This document shows positions 45,365 through 53,916 of a stretch of DNA of 64,000 nt, piece by piece. Origin of the DNA: Hyphomicrobiales bacterium. Lineage in GTDB: Bacteria; Pseudomonadota; Alphaproteobacteria; Rhizobiales; Beijerinckiaceae. Both the position numbers and the translations under genes were made by a program. Within the stretch, counting starts at the first letter, position 1. Each line of letters opens with the position of its first letter. The stretch is from assembly GCA_026400535.1 (NCBI GenBank), contig JAPLOU010000051.1, forward strand, positions 1-64,000, read 5' to 3'. The notes under the pieces are model-generated. The model was given only the letters and a program-made list of their open reading frames with translations, was not told where the DNA came from and searched no databases.

Positions 45365-45569
45365 GGCCGTTCGATCTCCCTTGACCGATTCCATCCTGCG
45401 TCGGTGGCGCAAGCTTCCAACGGCATGGTAACCGAGACGTTAACGACGTTTGATAAAGTTTGAACTCGAGCGGTTTCTTTCCCGCAAGCGGTCATTTATC
45501 TCTAGGAGTGGTAAACGCGCGGGCCAGTCAGGTCCGTGCTTTGGTGCGTGGCGTGAAAAGGCGGCTCTC

Positions 45570-48500
45570 ATGTCCAAGATCAAGAAGCAGACTGACCCCA
45601 CCGAAGCGGCACTTTCGGCCATCGAGGAAGCGCTCAACCAGGAAATGGCACGGGCTGCCAGCGACGCCCGACAGGGCGCGGTGGCGGTTGATCCGCCCGA
45701 GCCGCGCCTGCCCTCGGTCGGCGACAGGGAGCTTGGCGCGATCGAGCCGAAGCCGACTGCGCCTGCATCGCTGCCGTCTGGTCCGCCGCGGGCTGCAGCG
45801 CCTGCTGTTGTTGCACCCGACACGAGCCGTGTTGCCAACGATGACGGCCGCAACATGAGCGACCTCATCCAGTCCTTCTCCGCGAAGCCGTCGCGCAGGC
45901 CCTATCTGATCGCCCTGCTGGGATCGCTTTTGTGGACGGGCGGCATCGGGTTCCTGCTGCATGACCAGCATGGCGGCCTCGCACCCGCCATGACCGCCGT
46001 GATGGCCTTCAACCCCGGCCAGTTGGCGATCCTCGGCGGCGTGCTGCTGCTGCCGATCTTCCTGATGTTCGCGCTAGCTGGCATCTACGTCCGGACCAGC
46101 GAGATGCGGCTGTCATCGCGCGCGATGACCAATGTGGCCATGCGCCTGTCTGCGCCCGAAACGGTCGCCAGCGATTCGATGGTTTCGCTCTCGCAGGCGA
46201 TCCGCCGCGAAGTTTCGGCGATGGGCGACGGTATCGAACGGGCGGTGGCCCGGGCGGGCGAACTCGAAACCATCGTTCGCTCCGAGATATCCACGCTTGA
46301 ACGGGCCTATTCGGACAATGAGGTCCGCCTGCGCGCGCTGATCGACGAACTCGTCACCCAGCGCGAGGCAATCGTCACCAATTCCGATCGCGTCAAGACC
46401 GCGATCAGCGGCGCACACGAGAACCTGTCGCGTGACCTTGAAACCGCGAGCCGCTCGATCGCTGATGCGGTCAATACCGTCGGCGAGCGCGTCACCGGCG
46501 CGCTCGGCAGCAAGGGCGAGGAGATCACCGGGGCGCTCAGTCGCGCCGGGGACAAGATGGTTGACCAGATCGGCATGCGTGGCACCGATCTTGTCGAGCG
46601 CCTGCAGATGACCTCAAGCGAAGTGAGCGAGCGGCTGACCAAGGCGAGCGAAACCATTGCCGGTTCGCTCGATGACCGTTCCAACCAGATCGCGCAGCGC
46701 CTCGAAAGCACCTCGCTGGCCGTCGCGGGCGAGCTTGACACCCGCTCGCAGGCTGTGGTGGCCCGCCTCGCCGCTTCGACAGAACATGTGACAGCGCAGC
46801 TCGACGCGAAATCGCAGGAGATCACCGCGTCGCTCGAACGCACCGGTTCGGTGCTGACCGAGGGCCTTACCGGCGGTGCGCGCGAAGTCACCCGCTCGAT
46901 TGCCGAGACCGGGCGTTCCGTGGCCGAGGCGATCGCGGCCCGCGCGTCCGAAGTCAACGATACGCTCTCGCAGACCGGGACACGGCTCAGCAGTGATATC
47001 GCCAGCCGTGGCGAAGAGGTGGTCAGCCGCTTCAACGCCACCGGATCGGAGCTCATCGGGCTGCTGTCAACCCGCAGCGGCGAGGTCATGTCCACCTTCC
47101 AGAACAGCGGTGAAATGCTGGCCACCACCATCGCGGAAAGCGGCAGCGCCCTCACGGGCCAGATCGCTGCCGCGGGTGCGGCGATCCACCAGACCCTGAC
47201 CGTCAACGGAAAATCCGTTGCGGACGAGCTTGAGGCCCGGACCGCAAATCTGCGCGAGGTGATCGAAACGCGGACGGCAGAGGCGAAGGGCGTGTTCGCC
47301 ACCGCGACCGAGACCCTGCAGCAGCGTCTGGCCGCCGAGAGCGAGACGGCGCGCGGGCTCATTGCCAGCACGGGCAAGGAAATCGTGATGGCGCTGGCCG
47401 GGCAGGGCGCCCGTGTCAACGAAGCGCTCGCGGCCAATGGGGCATCGATCCTGCAGACAGTCGAGGTGCGCGGCAAGGAACTGGAAGCCAGTTTTGCCGG
47501 GCGCCTTGTCGCTCTGGAGGACATCATCGTCCATCGCGGCGGACTTTTGACCGAGAAGATCTCGACTGATTCGGCACGTTTCACCGAGGAAATGGGCCAG
47601 CGGCTGATGCAGATCGAGACGCTGCTGACCAAGGAAGGCGAGCAGCTGATCGACCGCCTGACCCAGCGTACGGACAGCGCCGCCATGACGCTTGTTGCCC
47701 GCACCAGCGAAGCAGCAGAGGCTATGGAAAGCCAGATCAAGGCCTTCGAGGACCGGTCCGGCGCCAAGAGCGCCGAAATCGCCAATTCGCTCGACAGCCT
47801 GATCGCGCGCATCGACATCAATCTGGGCAACCGTGCGCAGGTGCTGAACGAGGCCCTCGTGGAGCGCACGGTCGACATCGCACGCGTTCTGGCCGAAGGC
47901 GGCCGCGACGTGACGCAGGCCCTCGCGGCCAAGGCCGACGAGATCGGGGCGGTCGTGACCTCAAAGAGCGAGGCCCTGACGCTGACCCTTTCGACAAAGG
48001 CTGACGAAATCAACAATACGTTGGGTGGTCGGGCCCTGGAAATCGCCGATACGTTGGACCAGCGCATCGCGCGCTTCGAGGAACGGGTCGTCAACCGGCT
48101 CGACGCTGTCTCCGGCACGCTGGACGAGCGCAGCCGCCTTATCGCTGAGACCTTGCAGGCCAAGTCGGACGGCATTTCCGCGACGCTGGGCGCTCGGGCG
48201 GAGGATCTGCGTCAGCTGTTCGACGACAAGGGCACGGGCGTCGTGACGGCGCTCGGCCAGCGCGGCGAAATCATCGCCTCCGACATTGCCGCCATCGGTC
48301 AGGCTGTGGTGACAACGATCGAGAGCCGTGGCGCGAGCATCGTGGAAGGGCTGCGTGAGCGGGGCGGTGAGATCACGACAGCGCTGCAAGCATCCAGCGC
48401 CTATCTCACGACCGAACTCGACCAACGCACGGGAGCCATCGCCGCGGCGCTGGCCAGTTCGCAGGAACAGTTGCGCCAGACGCTTGACAATGGAACGGCC

Positions 48501-50012
48501 AGCTCGGTCCATACGTTGGTGACCACCAACGAGCGGATCAGGACCGAGCTCGGCGGCACGCTGGACCGGCTGGGTGAGGCCAATCGCCTGATGCAGCAGA
48601 TCGTCGCCAGCGCCAACACCAACCTTGCCGGCATTGGCGACAATCTCGGCGAGCGCGTCACCCAGTTGCAGGCCATCCTGACCGCCGTGTCTGACGAAAC
48701 CAGCCGCGCCAGCTCGCAGGTGGCCCAGCAGGTCGATGCGCTCAAGGGCGTGTCGCAGGGGGCCATCGTCCAGGCTTCCAGCCTTGTCGACCAGCTTGGC
48801 GACCAGGGGCGGACGCTGGCCGAGACGACCAAGGAGCACATCGCGGCGCTTTCGCAGGCGACGCGCCAGCTTGAAGCCGTGGAGAACAGGGTCGGCACGG
48901 TCCTGCAGGACCGCAAGCAGGGCCTCGAGGAGATACTCCACGCGATCTCGACGCGAACAGAGGACGTCGAATCGATCACGCGTTCGTTCACTGCACTGGT
49001 CGAAGATTCGCTCAAGGCTGCCGAGCAGCGCGCCCGCCAGATCGGGACTGTGTTGGCCGACAGCGCCGAAGCCACCAGCCACGCCATCTCGGACCATTTC
49101 GAGACCGTGCGCACCAACACCGGAAAGGAGCGAGAGCGCACTGCTGCTGCCCTTCGGGCGGCCTATGAAAGCGTCGCCGGCGATCTGGACGGCGGCCTCA
49201 CGCGCGTTACCGAACAGTTCCAGCAGACCGCTGCCGAGCTGCGCGCGATGAACGCCGAAATCCAGCGCGAACTGGAAGCGACCCGCGCCGAACTGCGCAA
49301 GGGCGTGCTCGACATGCCGCGCGAGACGCAGGAAACGACTGCCGCCATGCGGCGGGTCGTCGGCGATCAGATCAAGGCCCTGAACGAACTCTCCGATATC
49401 GTATCGCGTTCGGGTCGCACGCTGGATGTCGCGGCGCCGGAAGCGCCGCGCGCGAGGGTCGCACCGCCGCCGCTGGTTCAACCGCGCGTTGCCGAAGTCG
49501 CGCGCGAGGTTGCCGCGCCACGGGTGCCGTCCAGGCCGATGCCCGAACCCGTGCGGCGCGAAGAGCCTCCGATGGCGGAGCCTGCCCCGGCGCCGCGCGG
49601 GGGCTGGCTTTCGGACCTTCTGACCCGCGCCAGCCGCGAGGAGAAGCCGGCCGCGCAGCCAGGCGTGCCGATGCTGGAGAAGCTCGACTCACTCTCGGTC
49701 GATATCGCCCGGATGATCGACCATGACGCGGCCGTCGAATTGTGGGAGCGCTACAAGCGTGGCGAGCGGAACGTCTTCACGCGCCGCCTGTACACCTTGC
49801 AAGGCCAGCAGACCTTCGACGAAATCCGTCGCAGGTACCGGCGCGATGATGAGTTCAAGGAAACGGTCGACCGCTACATTGAGGAGTTCGAGCGGCTGCT
49901 CGACGAAGGCAGCAATGGCGGCCGCGACCAGACCATCGCCAACAGCTACCTGACATCCGAAACCGGCAAGGTCTACACCATGCTGGCCCATGCGAGTGGA
50001 CGGTTCGAGTAA
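45570..50012 (+). CDS. GPR/RgsE-like giant membrane-anchored polar-growth protein
   Basis: A 1480-residue protein. A short cytoplasmic region (1-110) precedes two membrane segments, at about 111-130 (PYLIALLGSLLWTGGIGFLL) and 152-174. From residue 282 a helical core of 33 gap-free 22-residue units runs to 1007. Then come more helices, a proline-rich linker (about 1290-1355) and a conserved C-terminus (LSVDIARMIDHDAAVELWER, RRLYTLQGQQTFDEIRRRY, TGKVYTMLAHA). Agrobacterium GPR and Sinorhizobium RgsE, which organise the growing pole, have this apolipoprotein-like build and are longer. The family assignment is from recall. A bidirectional terminator follows. Confidence 0.8.
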   Translation: MSKIKKQTDPTEAALSAIEEALNQEMARAASDARQGAVAVDPPEPRLPSVGDRELGAIEPKPTAPASLPSGPPRAAAPAVVAPDTSRVANDDGRNMSDLIQSFSAKPSRRPYLIALLGSLLWTGGIGFLLHDQHGGLAPAMTAVMAFNPGQLAILGGVLLLPIFLMFALAGIYVRTSEMRLSSRAMTNVAMRLSAPETVASDSMVSLSQAIRREVSAMGDGIERAVARAGELETIVRSEISTLERAYSDNEVRLRALIDELVTQREAIVTNSDRVKTAISGAHENLSRDLETASRSIADAVNTVGERVTGALGSKGEEITGALSRAGDKMVDQIGMRGTDLVERLQMTSSEVSERLTKASETIAGSLDDRSNQIAQRLESTSLAVAGELDTRSQAVVARLAASTEHVTAQLDAKSQEITASLERTGSVLTEGLTGGAREVTRSIAETGRSVAEAIAARASEVNDTLSQTGTRLSSDIASRGEEVVSRFNATGSELIGLLSTRSGEVMSTFQNSGEMLATTIAESGSALTGQIAAAGAAIHQTLTVNGKSVADELEARTANLREVIETRTAEAKGVFATATETLQQRLAAESETARGLIASTGKEIVMALAGQGARVNEALAANGASILQTVEVRGKELEASFAGRLVALEDIIVHRGGLLTEKISTDSARFTEEMGQRLMQIETLLTKEGEQLIDRLTQRTDSAAMTLVARTSEAAEAMESQIKAFEDRSGAKSAEIANSLDSLIARIDINLGNRAQVLNEALVERTVDIARVLAEGGRDVTQALAAKADEIGAVVTSKSEALTLTLSTKADEINNTLGGRALEIADTLDQRIARFEERVVNRLDAVSGTLDERSRLIAETLQAKSDGISATLGARAEDLRQLFDDKGTGVVTALGQRGEIIASDIAAIGQAVVTTIESRGASIVEGLRERGGEITTALQASSAYLTTELDQRTGAIAAALASSQEQLRQTLDNGTASSVHTLVTTNERIRTELGGTLDRLGEANRLMQQIVASANTNLAGIGDNLGERVTQLQAILTAVSDETSRASSQVAQQVDALKGVSQGAIVQASSLVDQLGDQGRTLAETTKEHIAALSQATRQLEAVENRVGTVLQDRKQGLEEILHAISTRTEDVESITRSFTALVEDSLKAAEQRARQIGTVLADSAEATSHAISDHFETVRTNTGKERERTAAALRAAYESVAGDLDGGLTRVTEQFQQTAAELRAMNAEIQRELEATRAELRKGVLDMPRETQETTAAMRRVVGDQIKALNELSDIVSRSGRTLDVAAPEAPRARVAPPPLVQPRVAEVAREVAAPRVPSRPMPEPVRREEPPMAEPAPAPRGGWLSDLLTRASREEKPAAQPGVPMLEKLDSLSVDIARMIDHDAAVELWERYKRGERNVFTRRLYTLQGQQTFDEIRRRYRRDDEFKETVDRYIEEFERLLDEGSNGGRDQTIANSYLTSETGKVYTMLAHASGRFE
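46413..48590 (+). repeat. 33 consecutive 22-residue (66-bp) protein repeats
   Basis: The translation can be cut every 22 residues without a single gap, from AHENLSRDLE to LDRLGEANRL. Units include RASEVNDTLSQTGTRLSSDI and RGEEVVSRFNATGSELIGLL. Hydrophobic residues recur at positions 5, 9, 16 and 20, with Arg/Lys at position 1 and often Gly at 13. This is a double hendecad (11 plus 11). The DNA copies are diverged, so the repeat is old and held by protein structure. Confidence 0.9.
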
Positions 50013-50050: not shown

Positions 50051-50077
50051 AAAAGGCGCCCGCCCAGGGCGCTTTTT
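50051..50077. terminator. Bidirectional Rho-independent terminator
   Basis: AAAAGGCGCCC, a GCCCA loop, then GGGCGCTTTTT: the A and T runs flank a GC stem, so it works on both strands. It sits between the GPR-like gene (plus) and the auxiliary lipoprotein gene (minus) and touches the stop codon of the latter. Confidence 0.88.
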
Positions 50078-50703
50078 CATTCTGCGGAGCGCGCTCCGCT
50101 GCGCCCGTCCCAACGGACGATGTCGCGCAAGACCTGCGACATGGCGGCGTCCAGCGCCTGAGCCGCAGCCGGGCCGGAAATGCTGGCGATGGGCACGCGC
50201 GCAGCAAAGCCGCGTGCGGCGGTGACTTTCCCGGACCGGTCGCCAATGATGCGCACCGTGACTTCGACCACCGCCTGGTTGGTCTCGGTCTCGATCCCGA
50301 AGCTACGGATGTCTGTACTGAGCGCGAGATCCGGCACAATGCGGTCGCCGGGCCGCCCGACCCGGCCGAGCCGCGACGCGTTCTCGAAGGTCTGGATCAG
50401 GCGGGTCTGGAACAGCTTCGGCAGCCTGTCGGCCCACTGGGCATCGCGGAGATAGGAGAGCGCACTGCCTTCGCGCACCAGGATTCGGTCTGAGTCGAGC
50501 GCCTGCACCGTGGTCGGCTCGTTGATCACCAGTTGCGCGCGCAGGCCCGAAACCGAGCCGATACTGGCCGGCGCCGTCAGGTCGTAGGTCATCCGTTCGG
50601 GCGATCCGCTGCAGGCAGCCAACCCGCCCGGAATGGCCAGCATGAGCGCCAGTGCGGGAGCGGATCGGGGCAGACAACGTACCAGGCAGGAGCAAAGATG
50701 CAT
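50077..50703 (-). CDS. ABC-type transport auxiliary lipoprotein (Mla/Mce system)
   Basis: A 208-residue protein with a lipoprotein signal (LMLAIPGGLAACSG, lipid-attached cysteine near 31). Its domain is typical of auxiliary lipoproteins of MCE transporters (LRAQLVINEPTTVQALDSDR, ALSYLRDAQWADRLPKLFQT). It would sit in the outer-membrane inner leaflet or periplasm and help MlaD-type proteins move lipids. It is the last gene of the operon that includes MlaE, MlaF and MlaD. Confidence 0.86.
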   Translation of the reverse strand: MHLCSCLVRCLPRSAPALALMLAIPGGLAACSGSPERMTYDLTAPASIGSVSGLRAQLVINEPTTVQALDSDRILVREGSALSYLRDAQWADRLPKLFQTRLIQTFENASRLGRVGRPGDRIVPDLALSTDIRSFGIETETNQAVVEVTVRIIGDRSGKVTAARGFAARVPIASISGPAAAQALDAAMSQVLRDIVRWDGRSGARSAE

Positions 50704-50832
50704 CGTCGATGATTTTCAGACCGGCGCCGCCAAAAGGGCCCTTGACGACCCAATCGCAAACGGCGTGTGGACACAACCCCCGGCCCGGGGCCGGCAACAG
50801 CAAATCACAGGCTGTGATCGGTCAGACATCGC

Positions 50833-51978
50833 TCACCGGCGGCCCGTATAATCCGGGATGCCCGGCTTGTTGCCGAACAGAAGCTGCTGCGGGTTGCGCT
50901 CGAAACTGCGCAGCGTCCGGTTCAGATCGTTCAGTGTCTTGCGGCCATCGCTGGCCAGAGCCTCGATGTCGCGAAGGCCTGGACCGGTGAAGCGGCTGAT
51001 GCCGGTGGTGATCTCGGCTGTGCGCTTGTCGAGATTGTCAGCAAGGGAGCGGATCGACCGGGCGGCCGCCCCGACATCGGCGAATGCGCCCTGACCTTCG
51101 CCGCCGCCGGCGGATCCGAGGAAGGCCTGCGCGCCCTTGAGAACGCCCTCGACCTGATCGGCAGCCCGATTGAGCTTGTCCGTGAGGCCGGCCACTGACT
51201 GGATGGTTCTGGTGACGTCCCCGGAACCGCCGGCGAGCGCGCTCGTGAATGTATCGATGTTGTCGACGCTGCGGTTGATCTTGCCGATGTCGATCCGTTT
51301 GGCTATGCCCGAGAGATCGCGGCTGAACTCCTCAAGTTGCGTTGCGAGAGGCCCAACCCTCTCGGCTGCTGCCGAAATACTGGCCAGCATCTTGCTGATG
51401 CCCTCGGAATTGTTGCCGAGCGCGGCGGAGAATTTCTCGACATTCTTGATCGTGTTCGCAATTGACTTGTCGTTGTCGTCGACCAGTTTTCCGATTCGCT
51501 CGAACAAATCGTCGGTGCGCCGCGCCACATTGCGGACGGTCTCGAGCAGGTCCTGCACCTCTGAACGTTCGGCGATAATGGTTGGCTGCGGCTGACCTGC
51601 CTTCGCCTGCAGCGGAGGCGCATCAACCTTGCCGCCGAGCAGCTGGATGGCGACCACCCCGGCCAGGCCCTGCGATTCAATGCGCGCCCGGGTGTCTTCG
51701 CGGATCGGCGTGTTGTTGGCGACTTCCGCGATGGCGAAGATCGAGCGCGGGTCATCGGGGAAGAGCTGGATGTCCTTGACTTCGCCGACCCGAAACCCGT
51801 TGAAGAGCACGTTGGAGCCGCGCGTCAGGCCGGTCACGGAGCCGGAAAACACGATCCGGATCTCCCGCCGGTCCGCGCCGCCGCCAAGTCCGGAAAACCA
51901 AGACACGAAACCGAACGCCGCACCCAGCACCGCGAGCGTGAACAGTCCGATTAACGCATAGTTGGCGCGGGTTTCCAT
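50833..51978 (-). CDS. MlaD-family (MCE domain) lipid-transport protein
   Basis: A 381-residue protein with one N-terminal membrane anchor (YALIGLFTLAVLGAAFGFVS), an MCE domain (about 40-120, with GSVTGLTRGSNVLFNGFRVG) and a long helical C-terminal part (from about residue 130). Such proteins form hexameric rings or tubes that carry phospholipids across the periplasm. It lies ten bases downstream of the ATPase gene. The long helical tail suggests a needle-like channel, longer than E. coli MlaD (about 180 residues). Confidence 0.92.
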   Translation of the reverse strand: METRANYALIGLFTLAVLGAAFGFVSWFSGLGGGADRREIRIVFSGSVTGLTRGSNVLFNGFRVGEVKDIQLFPDDPRSIFAIAEVANNTPIREDTRARIESQGLAGVVAIQLLGGKVDAPPLQAKAGQPQPTIIAERSEVQDLLETVRNVARRTDDLFERIGKLVDDNDKSIANTIKNVEKFSAALGNNSEGISKMLASISAAAERVGPLATQLEEFSRDLSGIAKRIDIGKINRSVDNIDTFTSALAGGSGDVTRTIQSVAGLTDKLNRAADQVEGVLKGAQAFLGSAGGGEGQGAFADVGAAARSIRSLADNLDKRTAEITTGISRFTGPGLRDIEALASDGRKTLNDLNRTLRSFERNPQQLLFGNKPGIPDYTGRR

Positions 51979-51988
51979 CGTGGTCTTG

Positions 51989-52780
51989 TCAGCCTTTCAT
52001 GCGTGCGAGCGCACGCTTGCCGCGGAAATAGGACTTCACCCAAGGATGCGTGCTCGACAGCATATCCTTCAGCTCACCGACGGCCACGACCTTCTTGTCC
52101 GCCAATGCGGCGATTCTGTCACACGAGGAAGCCAAGCTGTCGAGATCGTGGGTTACCATGAACACCGTCAACCCCAAAGTCTGCTGCAAGGTCCGGATCA
52201 GATCGTCAAAATCGGCGGCGCCGATGGGATCTAGCCCCGATGTCGGCTCATCAAGGAACACAACCTCCGGATCAAGCGCCAGCGCCCGCGCCAGCGCCGC
52301 CCGCTTGATCATGCCGCCGGAGAGTTGAGACGGAAACTTGTCGCCCGCGTCGGGCCTGAGCCCGACCATCTCAATCTTGAGCGCGGCCAGATCGTTCATC
52401 ATCGTCGGCGAGAGATCGAGATACTCGCGCATCGGAACCTGAATATTCTGCGCAACCGTGAGCGATGAGAACAGCGCGCCGTGCTGGAACATCACGCCCC
52501 AGCGCTTCTCGAGCGCGCGCTTGCCAGCTTCCGAGACCGAATCAAGGTCGGTGTCGAATACCGAGATCGTGCCACCCTGCTTTTCGACAAGCCCGAGGAT
52601 CGCCCGCGTCAGAACGGACTTGCCCGTGCCCGACCCGCCGACAAAACCAAGGATTTCGCCGCGCCGCACATCCAGTGACAGGCGGTCGAGGATGGTCTTG
52701 TCGCCAAAGGCCACGACCAGGTTGCGCACCTTGATGATCAGGTCCTGATCGGCTTGGGGCGAGGCGTCCATCACGGTCAA
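51989..52780 (-). CDS. MlaF-type ABC ATPase
   Basis: A 263-residue ATPase with Walker A GGSGTGKSVLTRAILGL, Q-loop VMFQHGALFSSLTVAQNI, signature LSGGMIKRAALARALALD and Walker B VVFLDEPTSGLDPI. The HGALFSSLTV and SGGMxKRAALARA wording is characteristic of the Mla/Mce/Ttg2A branch. It powers the MlaE permease. Its start overlaps the mlaE stop by four bases. Confidence 0.94.
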   Translation of the reverse strand: MTVMDASPQADQDLIIKVRNLVVAFGDKTILDRLSLDVRRGEILGFVGGSGTGKSVLTRAILGLVEKQGGTISVFDTDLDSVSEAGKRALEKRWGVMFQHGALFSSLTVAQNIQVPMREYLDLSPTMMNDLAALKIEMVGLRPDAGDKFPSQLSGGMIKRAALARALALDPEVVFLDEPTSGLDPIGAADFDDLIRTLQQTLGLTVFMVTHDLDSLASSCDRIAALADKKVVAVGELKDMLSSTHPWVKSYFRGKRALARMKG

Positions 52781-53916
52781 AACCGGATCGAGGCAAAGAA
52801 CATGGCAAACAGTCCGTCAAGCACAATGACCATGAAGATCGACTTGACCACGGATGCCGTGACCTGCTGACCCAGCGACTCAGCCGAACCCTTCACGTTC
52901 AAGCCCTCAATACAGGCGATGGCGCCGATGACGACAGCCATGAACGGCGCCTTGATCAGGCCGACCGAGAAATGCCGGTGATTGATGACGCTCTGAAGAC
53001 GCGACAGAAAGGTTTCGGGCGCAATGCCGCCGTATATCCACGAGACGAGGCCGGCACCGAACAGGCCGGCCAAGGAGGCGAGGAAACTCAGGATTGGCAT
53101 GGCGATGATCAGCGCCAGGATCCGCGGTACCACCAGCACGTCGACCGGATTGAGCCCCATAACGCGCAGGGCGTCGATCTCCTCCCGCATCTTCATAGAG
53201 CCGATTTCCGCGGTGAAAGCCGAGCCTGAGCGGCCTGCAACCATGATGGCGCAAAGCAGGAGCGCAAGTTCACGCAAGGTGATGATTCCGACGAGGTCCA
53301 CCACGAATGCTGTCGCACCGAAGCGGCGGAGCTGGAAGATCCCCTGCTGGGCGACGATGCAGCCCACCAGGAACGTGATCAGGATGATAATCGGAGCGCC
53401 GCGAAAGGCGATCAGTTCAAGCTGAGTGACCAGAGACGCCCAGCGGAACGAGGCCGGACGCAGCATGACCCGCCCGATCGCGACCACGACTTCTCCGATG
53501 AAACTGATGCCGCGCACCAGATCCTGTCCGGCATGAACCACCGTCTGCCCGACATCGGCGAGCAGTTCAACCAACCGCGAGCGCCGGGGCGAAACCATCG
53601 GCTCGTTGCGGTGCCGGACGGCGCCGATCAGCGCCAGGTGCCGGTCCGATGCGTCCGGCATCTCGACCTTGACCCCGTCGCTGCCCAGCCGATGGCTGAT
53701 CTGATCGATCACCAGTGCGCCAAGGGTGTCGAGGCGGTCAAGGCGCTTGAGATCAAGCGACGCCTTGCGGACCTCGCCCAGACCCACCAGCAATTCCCCC
53801 ATGATGATCTCAAGGCGGCGGCCGTGATCGAGAGTCCACTCGCCGGTCAGGATGATCGTCGCTTGGTCCTGTGCAAAGGTGATCTCGAAGGCAGGATTTG
53901 ACAGCGTTGTTGTCAT
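52777..53916 (-). CDS. MlaE-type permease with N-terminal STAS domain
   Basis: A 379-residue protein. Residues 1-110 form a STAS-like domain (TLDHGRRLEIIMGELL, KRLDRLDTLGALVIDQISHR). The rest is a MlaE/YrbE permease with AFRGAPIIILITFLVGCIVA, REIDALRVMGLNPVDVLVVP and a C-terminal membrane helix. In E. coli the STAS partner, MlaB, is separate; here it is fused to the permease. The start overlaps the stop of the upstream MFS gene (ATGA) and the stop overlaps the ATPase start, giving a coupled chain. Confidence 0.94.
   Translation of the reverse strand: MTTTLSNPAFEITFAQDQATIILTGEWTLDHGRRLEIIMGELLVGLGEVRKASLDLKRLDRLDTLGALVIDQISHRLGSDGVKVEMPDASDRHLALIGAVRHRNEPMVSPRRSRLVELLADVGQTVVHAGQDLVRGISFIGEVVVAIGRVMLRPASFRWASLVTQLELIAFRGAPIIILITFLVGCIVAQQGIFQLRRFGATAFVVDLVGIITLRELALLLCAIMVAGRSGSAFTAEIGSMKMREEIDALRVMGLNPVDVLVVPRILALIIAMPILSFLASLAGLFGAGLVSWIYGGIAPETFLSRLQSVINHRHFSVGLIKAPFMAVVIGAIACIEGLNVKGSAESLGQQVTASVVKSIFMVIVLDGLFAMFFASIRF

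Follow-up and report, generated by a model that had tools for sequence, protein, structure and literature searches.

GPR of Agrobacterium tumefaciens and RgsE of Sinorhizobium meliloti are central to polar growth in the Hyphomicrobiales. In the sections of the two reports considered here, both are described as large (2115 and 2089 aa, respectively), membrane-anchored and mostly helical proteins that sit at the growing pole and are needed for rod shape in A. tumefaciens and S. meliloti (PMC8262873, PMC7327166). Coiled-coil regions have already been mentioned beside the apolipoprotein domains of RgsE (PMC7327166). In Actinobacteria, the DivIVA-like proteins Scy and FilP are polar coiled-coil organisers, which form dimers and contain long hendecad stretches with an alanine-rich core; Scy exceeds 1000 residues, almost all of them in hendecads (excerpts of PMC9858780). 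To date, among the literature matches listed, GPR or RgsE has never been joined with hendecads, and the hendecad survey of Martinez-Goikoetxea and Lupas (2023) may list the family. In the matched portions of text, hendecads occur together with polar growth only in PMC9858780, which deals with Gram-positives, and together with Agrobacterium only in PMC3276543, which deals with Arabidopsis MOM1; their combination with rhizobia gave no match.

The window, a stretch of 64,000 nucleotides from a Hyphomicrobiales bacterium, carries on its plus strand (45570..50012) the gene of a GPR/RgsE-like polar-growth protein of 1480 aa, counted from the ATG at 45570 in the ORF list; an in-frame TTG is also present upstream, at 45450. 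The GPR-like identity proposed in the initial annotation is supported by conserved N- and C-terminal domains flanking a long helix, as seen by comparison with Hyphomicrobiales homologues and not with the GPR and RgsE sequences. By sequence reading, two hydrophobic helices near the N-terminus are probable membrane spans (all coordinates on the plus strand): residues 113-131 (45906..45962; AF2 helix 110-134) and residues 152-174 (46023..46091), the latter inside AF2 helix 149-194. A conserved anchor follows (residues 191-262; 46140..46355), to which the phase of the subsequent hendecad array (residues 266-1004; 46365..48581) is locked. Between the prolines at 196 and 1250, the chain is free of proline over 1053 residues (197-1249; 46158..49316). 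The array is continued by a helical extension of mixed heptads and hendecads (residues 1008-1284; 48591..49421; AF2 helices 1012-1183 and 1188-1284), whose period is near 3.6 (Fourier 3.605 over residues 1008-1283). Beyond it lie a linker (residues 1285-1345; 49422..49604), which is proline-rich according to the proline list and probably disordered (pLDDT mostly below 50), and a conserved folded C-terminal domain (approximately residues 1367-1476; 49668..49997; AF2 pLDDT about 80-96) with many near-invariant alignment columns. The C-terminal 120 residues are present in 41/41 genomes of the window organism and its near relatives and in 284 of the 297 order-level genomes sampled, and a Foldseek search with the 470-residue C-terminal model found no PDB match at E<=0.001.

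Hendecad periodicity of the central array

The initial annotation had described the core as 33 gap-free 22-residue blocks with hydrophobic residues at positions 5, 9, 16 and 20. The reading frame, its coordinates and the blocks (residues 282-1007) were all reproduced, with Val, Ile, Leu, Met, Phe, Trp or Tyr at these four positions in 30, 32, 31 and 32 of the 33 blocks, respectively. The Fourier power of the hydrophobic pattern is 92.3 at 11/3 = 3.667 residues, against 12.4 for the largest power in the period scan of 200 shuffles, and the autocorrelation of hydrophobicity stays at 0.56-0.59 at each multiple of 11 up to 66. No heptad signal was found in the window array (power 0.2 at 3.5 and 0.3 at 7). 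The period search had been expected to give peaks at both 22 and 11 residues in a conserved phase, and the peak at 11 stood with its phase kept, whereas a 22-residue component of its own was absent from the array (power 0.1). A phase HMM placed residues 266-1004 in a single slip-free run of 67 hendecads, that is, in one phase over 739 residues, so the hendecad helix and the strict register claimed for it are supported.

The 22-residue unit itself was not confirmed in the window protein. Positions 16 and 20 are positions 5 and 9 plus 11, and odd and even hendecads are alike in composition (p=0.79, 2000 permutations; parity z -0.9), on which grounds the larger unit was rejected. Within the 67 units, position 5 is large-hydrophobic in 93% and position 9 in 99%, position 2 is Gly, Ser, Thr or Ala in 56/66, and position 6 is Ala, Thr or Val. 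In the a-k lettering, position 2 becomes a, position 5 (Ile/Leu/Val) becomes d and position 9 (mostly Leu) becomes h. Compared with the a/d/h (3-4-4) hendecad pattern, the period and the d and h sites are present, and the third site, a, is small rather than hydrophobic.

Double hendecads do exist elsewhere in the family. Parity was examined in 130 proteins; unbroken runs of 30 units or more occur in 117 of them, and z exceeds 3 in 56 of these 117, a real 22-residue alternation. When each family is represented by a single protein (28-30 families per separation), excess identity averages 0.04-0.06 at separations of 22, 44, 66 and so on, versus 0.00-0.01 at 11, 33, 55 and so on. The four nearest full-length relatives (L031, L032, L034 and L035) have parity z of -1.0 to -0.1. 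Since about half of the family alternates, and the window protein and these four relatives do not, the double hendecad is a trait of part of the family that is missing from the window lineage.

Two antisense open reading frames extend across the array on the minus strand (46307-48175, 622 aa; 47961-49481, 506 aa); they are probably a side effect of a GC-rich coding pattern that repeats every 33 bases.

Register, length and slips among homologues

The distance between the two flanks of the array was taken in 70 full-length proteins, namely the window protein and those of 69 of 80 loci. Good anchors were found in 65, and five were dropped for weak ones: L081 (8 mod 11), L089, L104, L108 (4) and L110 (0). 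The array forms one phase run with no break in 39 of the 65, the window protein included. These 39 proteins have 25 distinct flank distances, from 701 to 1471 residues, and every one is 8 mod 11; because the distances split into 16 at 19 mod 22 and nine at 8 mod 22, the length quantum is 11. The same range of lengths led us to reject an exact molecular ruler. The remaining 26 contain one or two slips, with distances of 7 (20 proteins), 3 (four) or 4 (two) mod 11. The initial expectation of a phase kept in homologues was thus supported, with the qualification that homologues do slip. The slip is +1 in 20 of the 26 and +4 then +1 in four. The Microvirga loci among L075-L107 carry such a slip, +1 or +4 then +1, conserved in the middle of the array, and Bosea proteins are mostly without it.

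At the level of the order, 55 of 60 proteins, from 33 families, met the anchor and array criteria, and the phase of the array start relative to the N-terminal anchor is identical in 47 of these 55. A pure 3.667 period is dominant within the order, local periods lying between 3.655 and 3.68 in 584 of 724 windows. The longest one-phase runs are those of L138 (150 units) and L133 (146.9 units). A long array is not universal, since nine of the 60 proteins, from eight of 35 families, have fewer than 400 hendecad residues, and families f15, f51 and f4 have hardly any hendecad run (longest 1.8-9.0 units). Their proteins L160 (f15), L149 and L170 (f51) and L159 (f4) are shorter than 1000 residues, with the end regions kept and the array almost gone.

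Slips, counted where two runs of 33 residues or more abut, numbered 128 in the 60 order-level proteins (68 of +4, 39 of +8, 12 of +1, seven of +7 and two of +6, with none of the five other sizes), although neither proteins nor slips are independent events, the homologues being related. Slips of +4, +8, +1 or +7, 126 of the 128 together, rotate the hydrophobic seam by no more than about 100 degrees, mostly by 33 or 65. Sizes +4, +8 and +1 correspond to one, two and three heptads among hendecads, with rotations of 33, 65 and 98 degrees; +4 was seen in 20 families and +8 in 19. The method introduces no bias in slip size: simulated slips of uniform size were recovered as uniform (295/300), and 60 simulated slip-free arrays gave no false slips. 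At a slip penalty of -12 the counts were 6/29/2/1/15 for +1/+4/+6/+7/+8, and at -6 they were 14/77/2/2/7/37/1 for +1/+4/+5/+6/+7/+8/+9, where three of the 140 slips have other sizes; at -15 there were no direct slips, the HMM path passing through background. In L124, +4 slips recur across residues 606-837, mostly at a spacing of 40 residues (three hendecads and one heptad), which suggests a local 40-residue unit in this protein.

It might be argued that the 11-residue quantum is only mutational, arising by unit duplication or slippage without selection. Repeat proteins do gain and lose units, and the excess identity at multiples of 22 points the same way. On the other hand, no tandem repeat was detected inside the array at score 30 in a scan of 46000-49000 (its two hits, at 48778-48956, lie downstream) and the genome has no second copy, on which grounds recent DNA duplication was rejected as the source of the repeat. 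The narrow choice of slip sizes and the slow change of core positions also count against a purely mutational quantum, which we regard as highly unlikely. Of 43 pairs of equal length, the 30 with 45-98% identity were used to measure substitution; position 9 has the lowest rate (0.096), followed by positions 1, 2, 5 and 6 (0.125-0.149), and positions 3, 7 and 11 have the highest (0.277-0.298).

Across the class, 289 genomes were sampled, four of them from the window's own family, and 124 match the C-terminal 470-residue alignment. In 15 proteins from outside the order, hendecad runs never exceed 24.9 units, and local periods range from 3.535 to 3.675, mostly 3.55-3.66, in windows with power of at least 10. 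The middle stretch has no proline in seven of the 15, one or two in five, and 6-12 in three (L209, L212 and L215); six of the seven proline-free stretches comprise 1073-1671 residues, and that of L213 comprises 362. The family outside the order thus mostly keeps the long helix while its period shifts, a drift that is natural for coiled coils. The question whether homologues often break the phase accordingly has a mixed answer, the majority of anchored proteins being unbroken, yet the rods outside the order not being pure hendecads.

Packing of the proposed rod and the apolipoprotein match

Across 70 arrays, a single proline was counted in 73,323 residues, versus 5.2% outside the arrays. Glycine makes up 9.3% of array residues, which is unusual for a stiff helix. 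In 31 proteins (one per family plus the window protein), charges anticorrelate most at separations of 3 and 4, as in a helix. Couplings between helices were taken at separations of 2, 5, 6, 9, 10 and 13, which are out of single-helix contact. At these, t falls below -3 for 6 of 11 types of opposed-flank pairs ({1,8} with {6,10}); back-flank types do so in 2 of 18 cases, and the single back-back type does not. Opposed-flank coupling at fixed separation is predicted for a parallel in-register coiled coil, and the observed charges fit it.

The AF2 models, each of a single chain, agree with long helices. For residues 98-462 (53-row alignment; mean pLDDT 83.8 with a dip below 50 near 327-331, pTM 0.32), helices are predicted over both hydrophobic stretches together with a continuous helix at 196-461; for residues 1011-1480 (mean pLDDT 76.5, pTM 0.33), helices extend to 1284, followed by a mostly disordered stretch and the folded domain near 1367-1476. 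Hendecads are particularly difficult AlphaFold targets, as stated in the excerpted text on CCfrag (PMC11676326). A straight helix would have 3.63 residues per turn (PMC9858780, in part), and the hendecad superhelix makes one right-handed turn per 363 residues (54 nm), whereas a heptad one is left-handed and turns every 98. With its period of 3.667 and the absence of proline, the long, nearly straight rod foreseen in the initial annotation appears to be the best reading of the sequence.

We consider that the core is a long, nearly untwisted, parallel in-register coiled-coil rod of 67 hendecads, most likely a homodimer, which would serve as a membrane-anchored scaffold; the probability of this reading is put at roughly 0.75. 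In hendecads a single core residue faces the axis, which in a dimer calls for a small side chain there, as set out in the sections of PMC9858780 considered here, and the small residues at one core position of the window protein agree with this account. The N-terminal hydrophobic hairpin would anchor the rod in the inner membrane, and the conserved C-terminal domain would be held at its far end by a flexible linker. At 0.148 nm per residue, the 745 residues between the anchors would span 110 nm and the helix of 1087 residues, with its extension, about 161 nm. Selection would act on the register and on a proline-free helix and not on length, as expected of a stiff scaffold or spacer for the polar growth machinery, and not of a lipid-binding apolipoprotein or an exact ruler.

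Other coiled coils could share the hydrophobic seam, such as a trimer, a tetramer, a lateral bundle or an antiparallel pair. Position 6, being Ala, Thr or Val, may widen the interacting face, and GPR forms higher-order foci (PMC8262873, in part). The flank coupling at fixed separation fits a parallel in-register arrangement, whereas an antiparallel one would give no fixed separation. Such a departure from the dimer is unlikely, though it deserves some weight, and most of the preferred account would survive if the assembly were a parallel trimer. A monomer, whether a lone alpha-helix or a chain folded back into a hairpin bundle, has only a very slim chance: the AF2 monomer is indeed one long helix, but a single helix would leave the continuous seam at positions 5 and 9 exposed, and a hairpin bundle needs turns within more than a thousand residues that lack proline.

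A different role has been proposed for Agrobacterium GPR, in which amphipathic 11/22 repeats lie on or sort lipids in the manner of apolipoproteins (argued in the sections of PMC8262873 considered). This idea rests partly on an 'apolipoprotein' match, and the window protein has one too. PF01442 (Apolipoprotein A1/A4/E) matches the whole protein at 138.2 bits, above the cut-off of 90, and a sequence search of the PDB at E<=0.01 picked out two chains of apolipoprotein A-IV and nothing else (E about 4e-7 and 5e-7). By itself the array reaches 130.2 bits, yet three within-column hendecad shuffles of it scored 129.3, 143.0 and 139.5 bits, and a single full shuffle of the array had no PF01442 match. 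Because column-shuffled arrays score alike, the match can be put down to periodic composition and gives no evidence for common ancestry, a control that applies to the window protein as a homologue and not to GPR itself. No individual PF01442 match exceeds 39.6 bits, and sub-cut-off matches to the model occur in 7 of 14 control genomes.

Apolipoprotein 22-residue repeats are punctuated by proline, which the window array lacks completely. The likeness to apolipoproteins A1/A4/E lies in the helical 11/22 periodicity and a score above the cut-off; unlike theirs, the match of the window protein survives column shuffling and its family has practically no array proline, so the 'apolipoprotein-like helices' of the initial annotation are not supported as homology. 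Besides, the array has a narrow hydrophobic stripe, a net charge of -30 and a HELIQUEST-type D of about 0 (threshold 0.68), indices that, as far as sequence can tell, argue against lipid binding.

Next to gpr lies an Mpc-type (Mla-Pqi chimeric) lipid-transport operon on the minus strand (50077-53916), convergent with it, with ABC_trans_aux, MlaD, ABC and MlaE matches, an arrangement that is called Mpc (PMC12436622, in part). At least one Mpc operon gene is convergent downstream in 74 of 80 loci, and four of the other six end within 1 kb; mpcD is within about 8 kb of gpr in 11 of the 19 loci of other families that could be used. This linkage is the sole contextual pointer to lipids, and a hint at most. 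Given the shuffles and the lack of proline, the apolipoprotein-style role seems quite unlikely.

Comparison with known polar organisers

The deletions made in Agrobacterium GPR allow a retrospective comparison with the coiled-coil rod. In the sections of PMC8262873 considered here, the 'cc' deletions remove about 20 residues, given as 20 aa, 413-434, 413-433 or 1100-1120. Two of them interfere with wild-type GPR, one being the most severe construct of all. Alone, both give paired foci, with partial complementation by A-IV-4cc and significant complementation by A-IV-1cc. The authors' structural speculation there leaves this contrast unexplained, and mixed multimers are suggested by them (PMC8262873). 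By our calculation, the seam rotates by -160, -177 or 164 degrees (periods of 3.6, 3.63 and 3.667, respectively) when 20 residues are deleted, by 60-98 degrees when 21 are lost and by 0-40 when 22 are. It is conceivable that a turn of at least 160 degrees is tolerable in a homodimer and damaging in a mixed dimer. A register-locked coiled coil would fit the interference in this way; the paired foci that A-IV-1cc also forms beside the wild type do not fit (PMC8262873). N-terminal GFP foci of GPR need not report the folding of the rod. If the register-locked coiled coil is true, only mild effects are expected of deletions that preserve the seam, and those turning it by about 160-180 degrees, as 20 residues do, should interfere beside wild-type chains. 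The same report, in part, puts the length of 1700 extended helical residues at 600 nm (PMC8262873); at 0.148 nm per residue, 1700 helical residues measure 252 nm.

Like GPR and RgsE, the window protein is large and mostly helical, with a C-terminus conserved throughout the order; unlike them it is shorter, and the likeness is drawn from published descriptions of the two. Its array is pure hendecad, whereas the rods of two of three relatives (L129 and L163) in family f24, presumably Rhizobiaceae, have periods mostly of 3.60-3.65. A weak match to the coiled-coil family SpiroCoCo (NCBIfam NF047514) was seen at residues 258-384, and membership was rejected at 18.4 bits against a cut-off of 75.

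With Scy and FilP, the window protein shares a long hendecad rod and small core residues. It differs from them in having a membrane hairpin instead, with no DivIVA family in its Pfam scan at E<=1, and in homologues that reach 150 units in one phase. It is possible, though we hold it rather doubtful, that the Hyphomicrobiales evolved, by convergence with Scy of Streptomyces, a polar organiser built as an untwisted hendecad rod, locked in phase and free in length (from a few to about 200 units), with rods packing side by side. Such an organiser would change almost only in 11-residue quanta or by slips that preserve the seam. Since the seam barely winds, outward faces would stay aligned over 100-300 nm, and the rods could pack into an ordered array that marks the pole.
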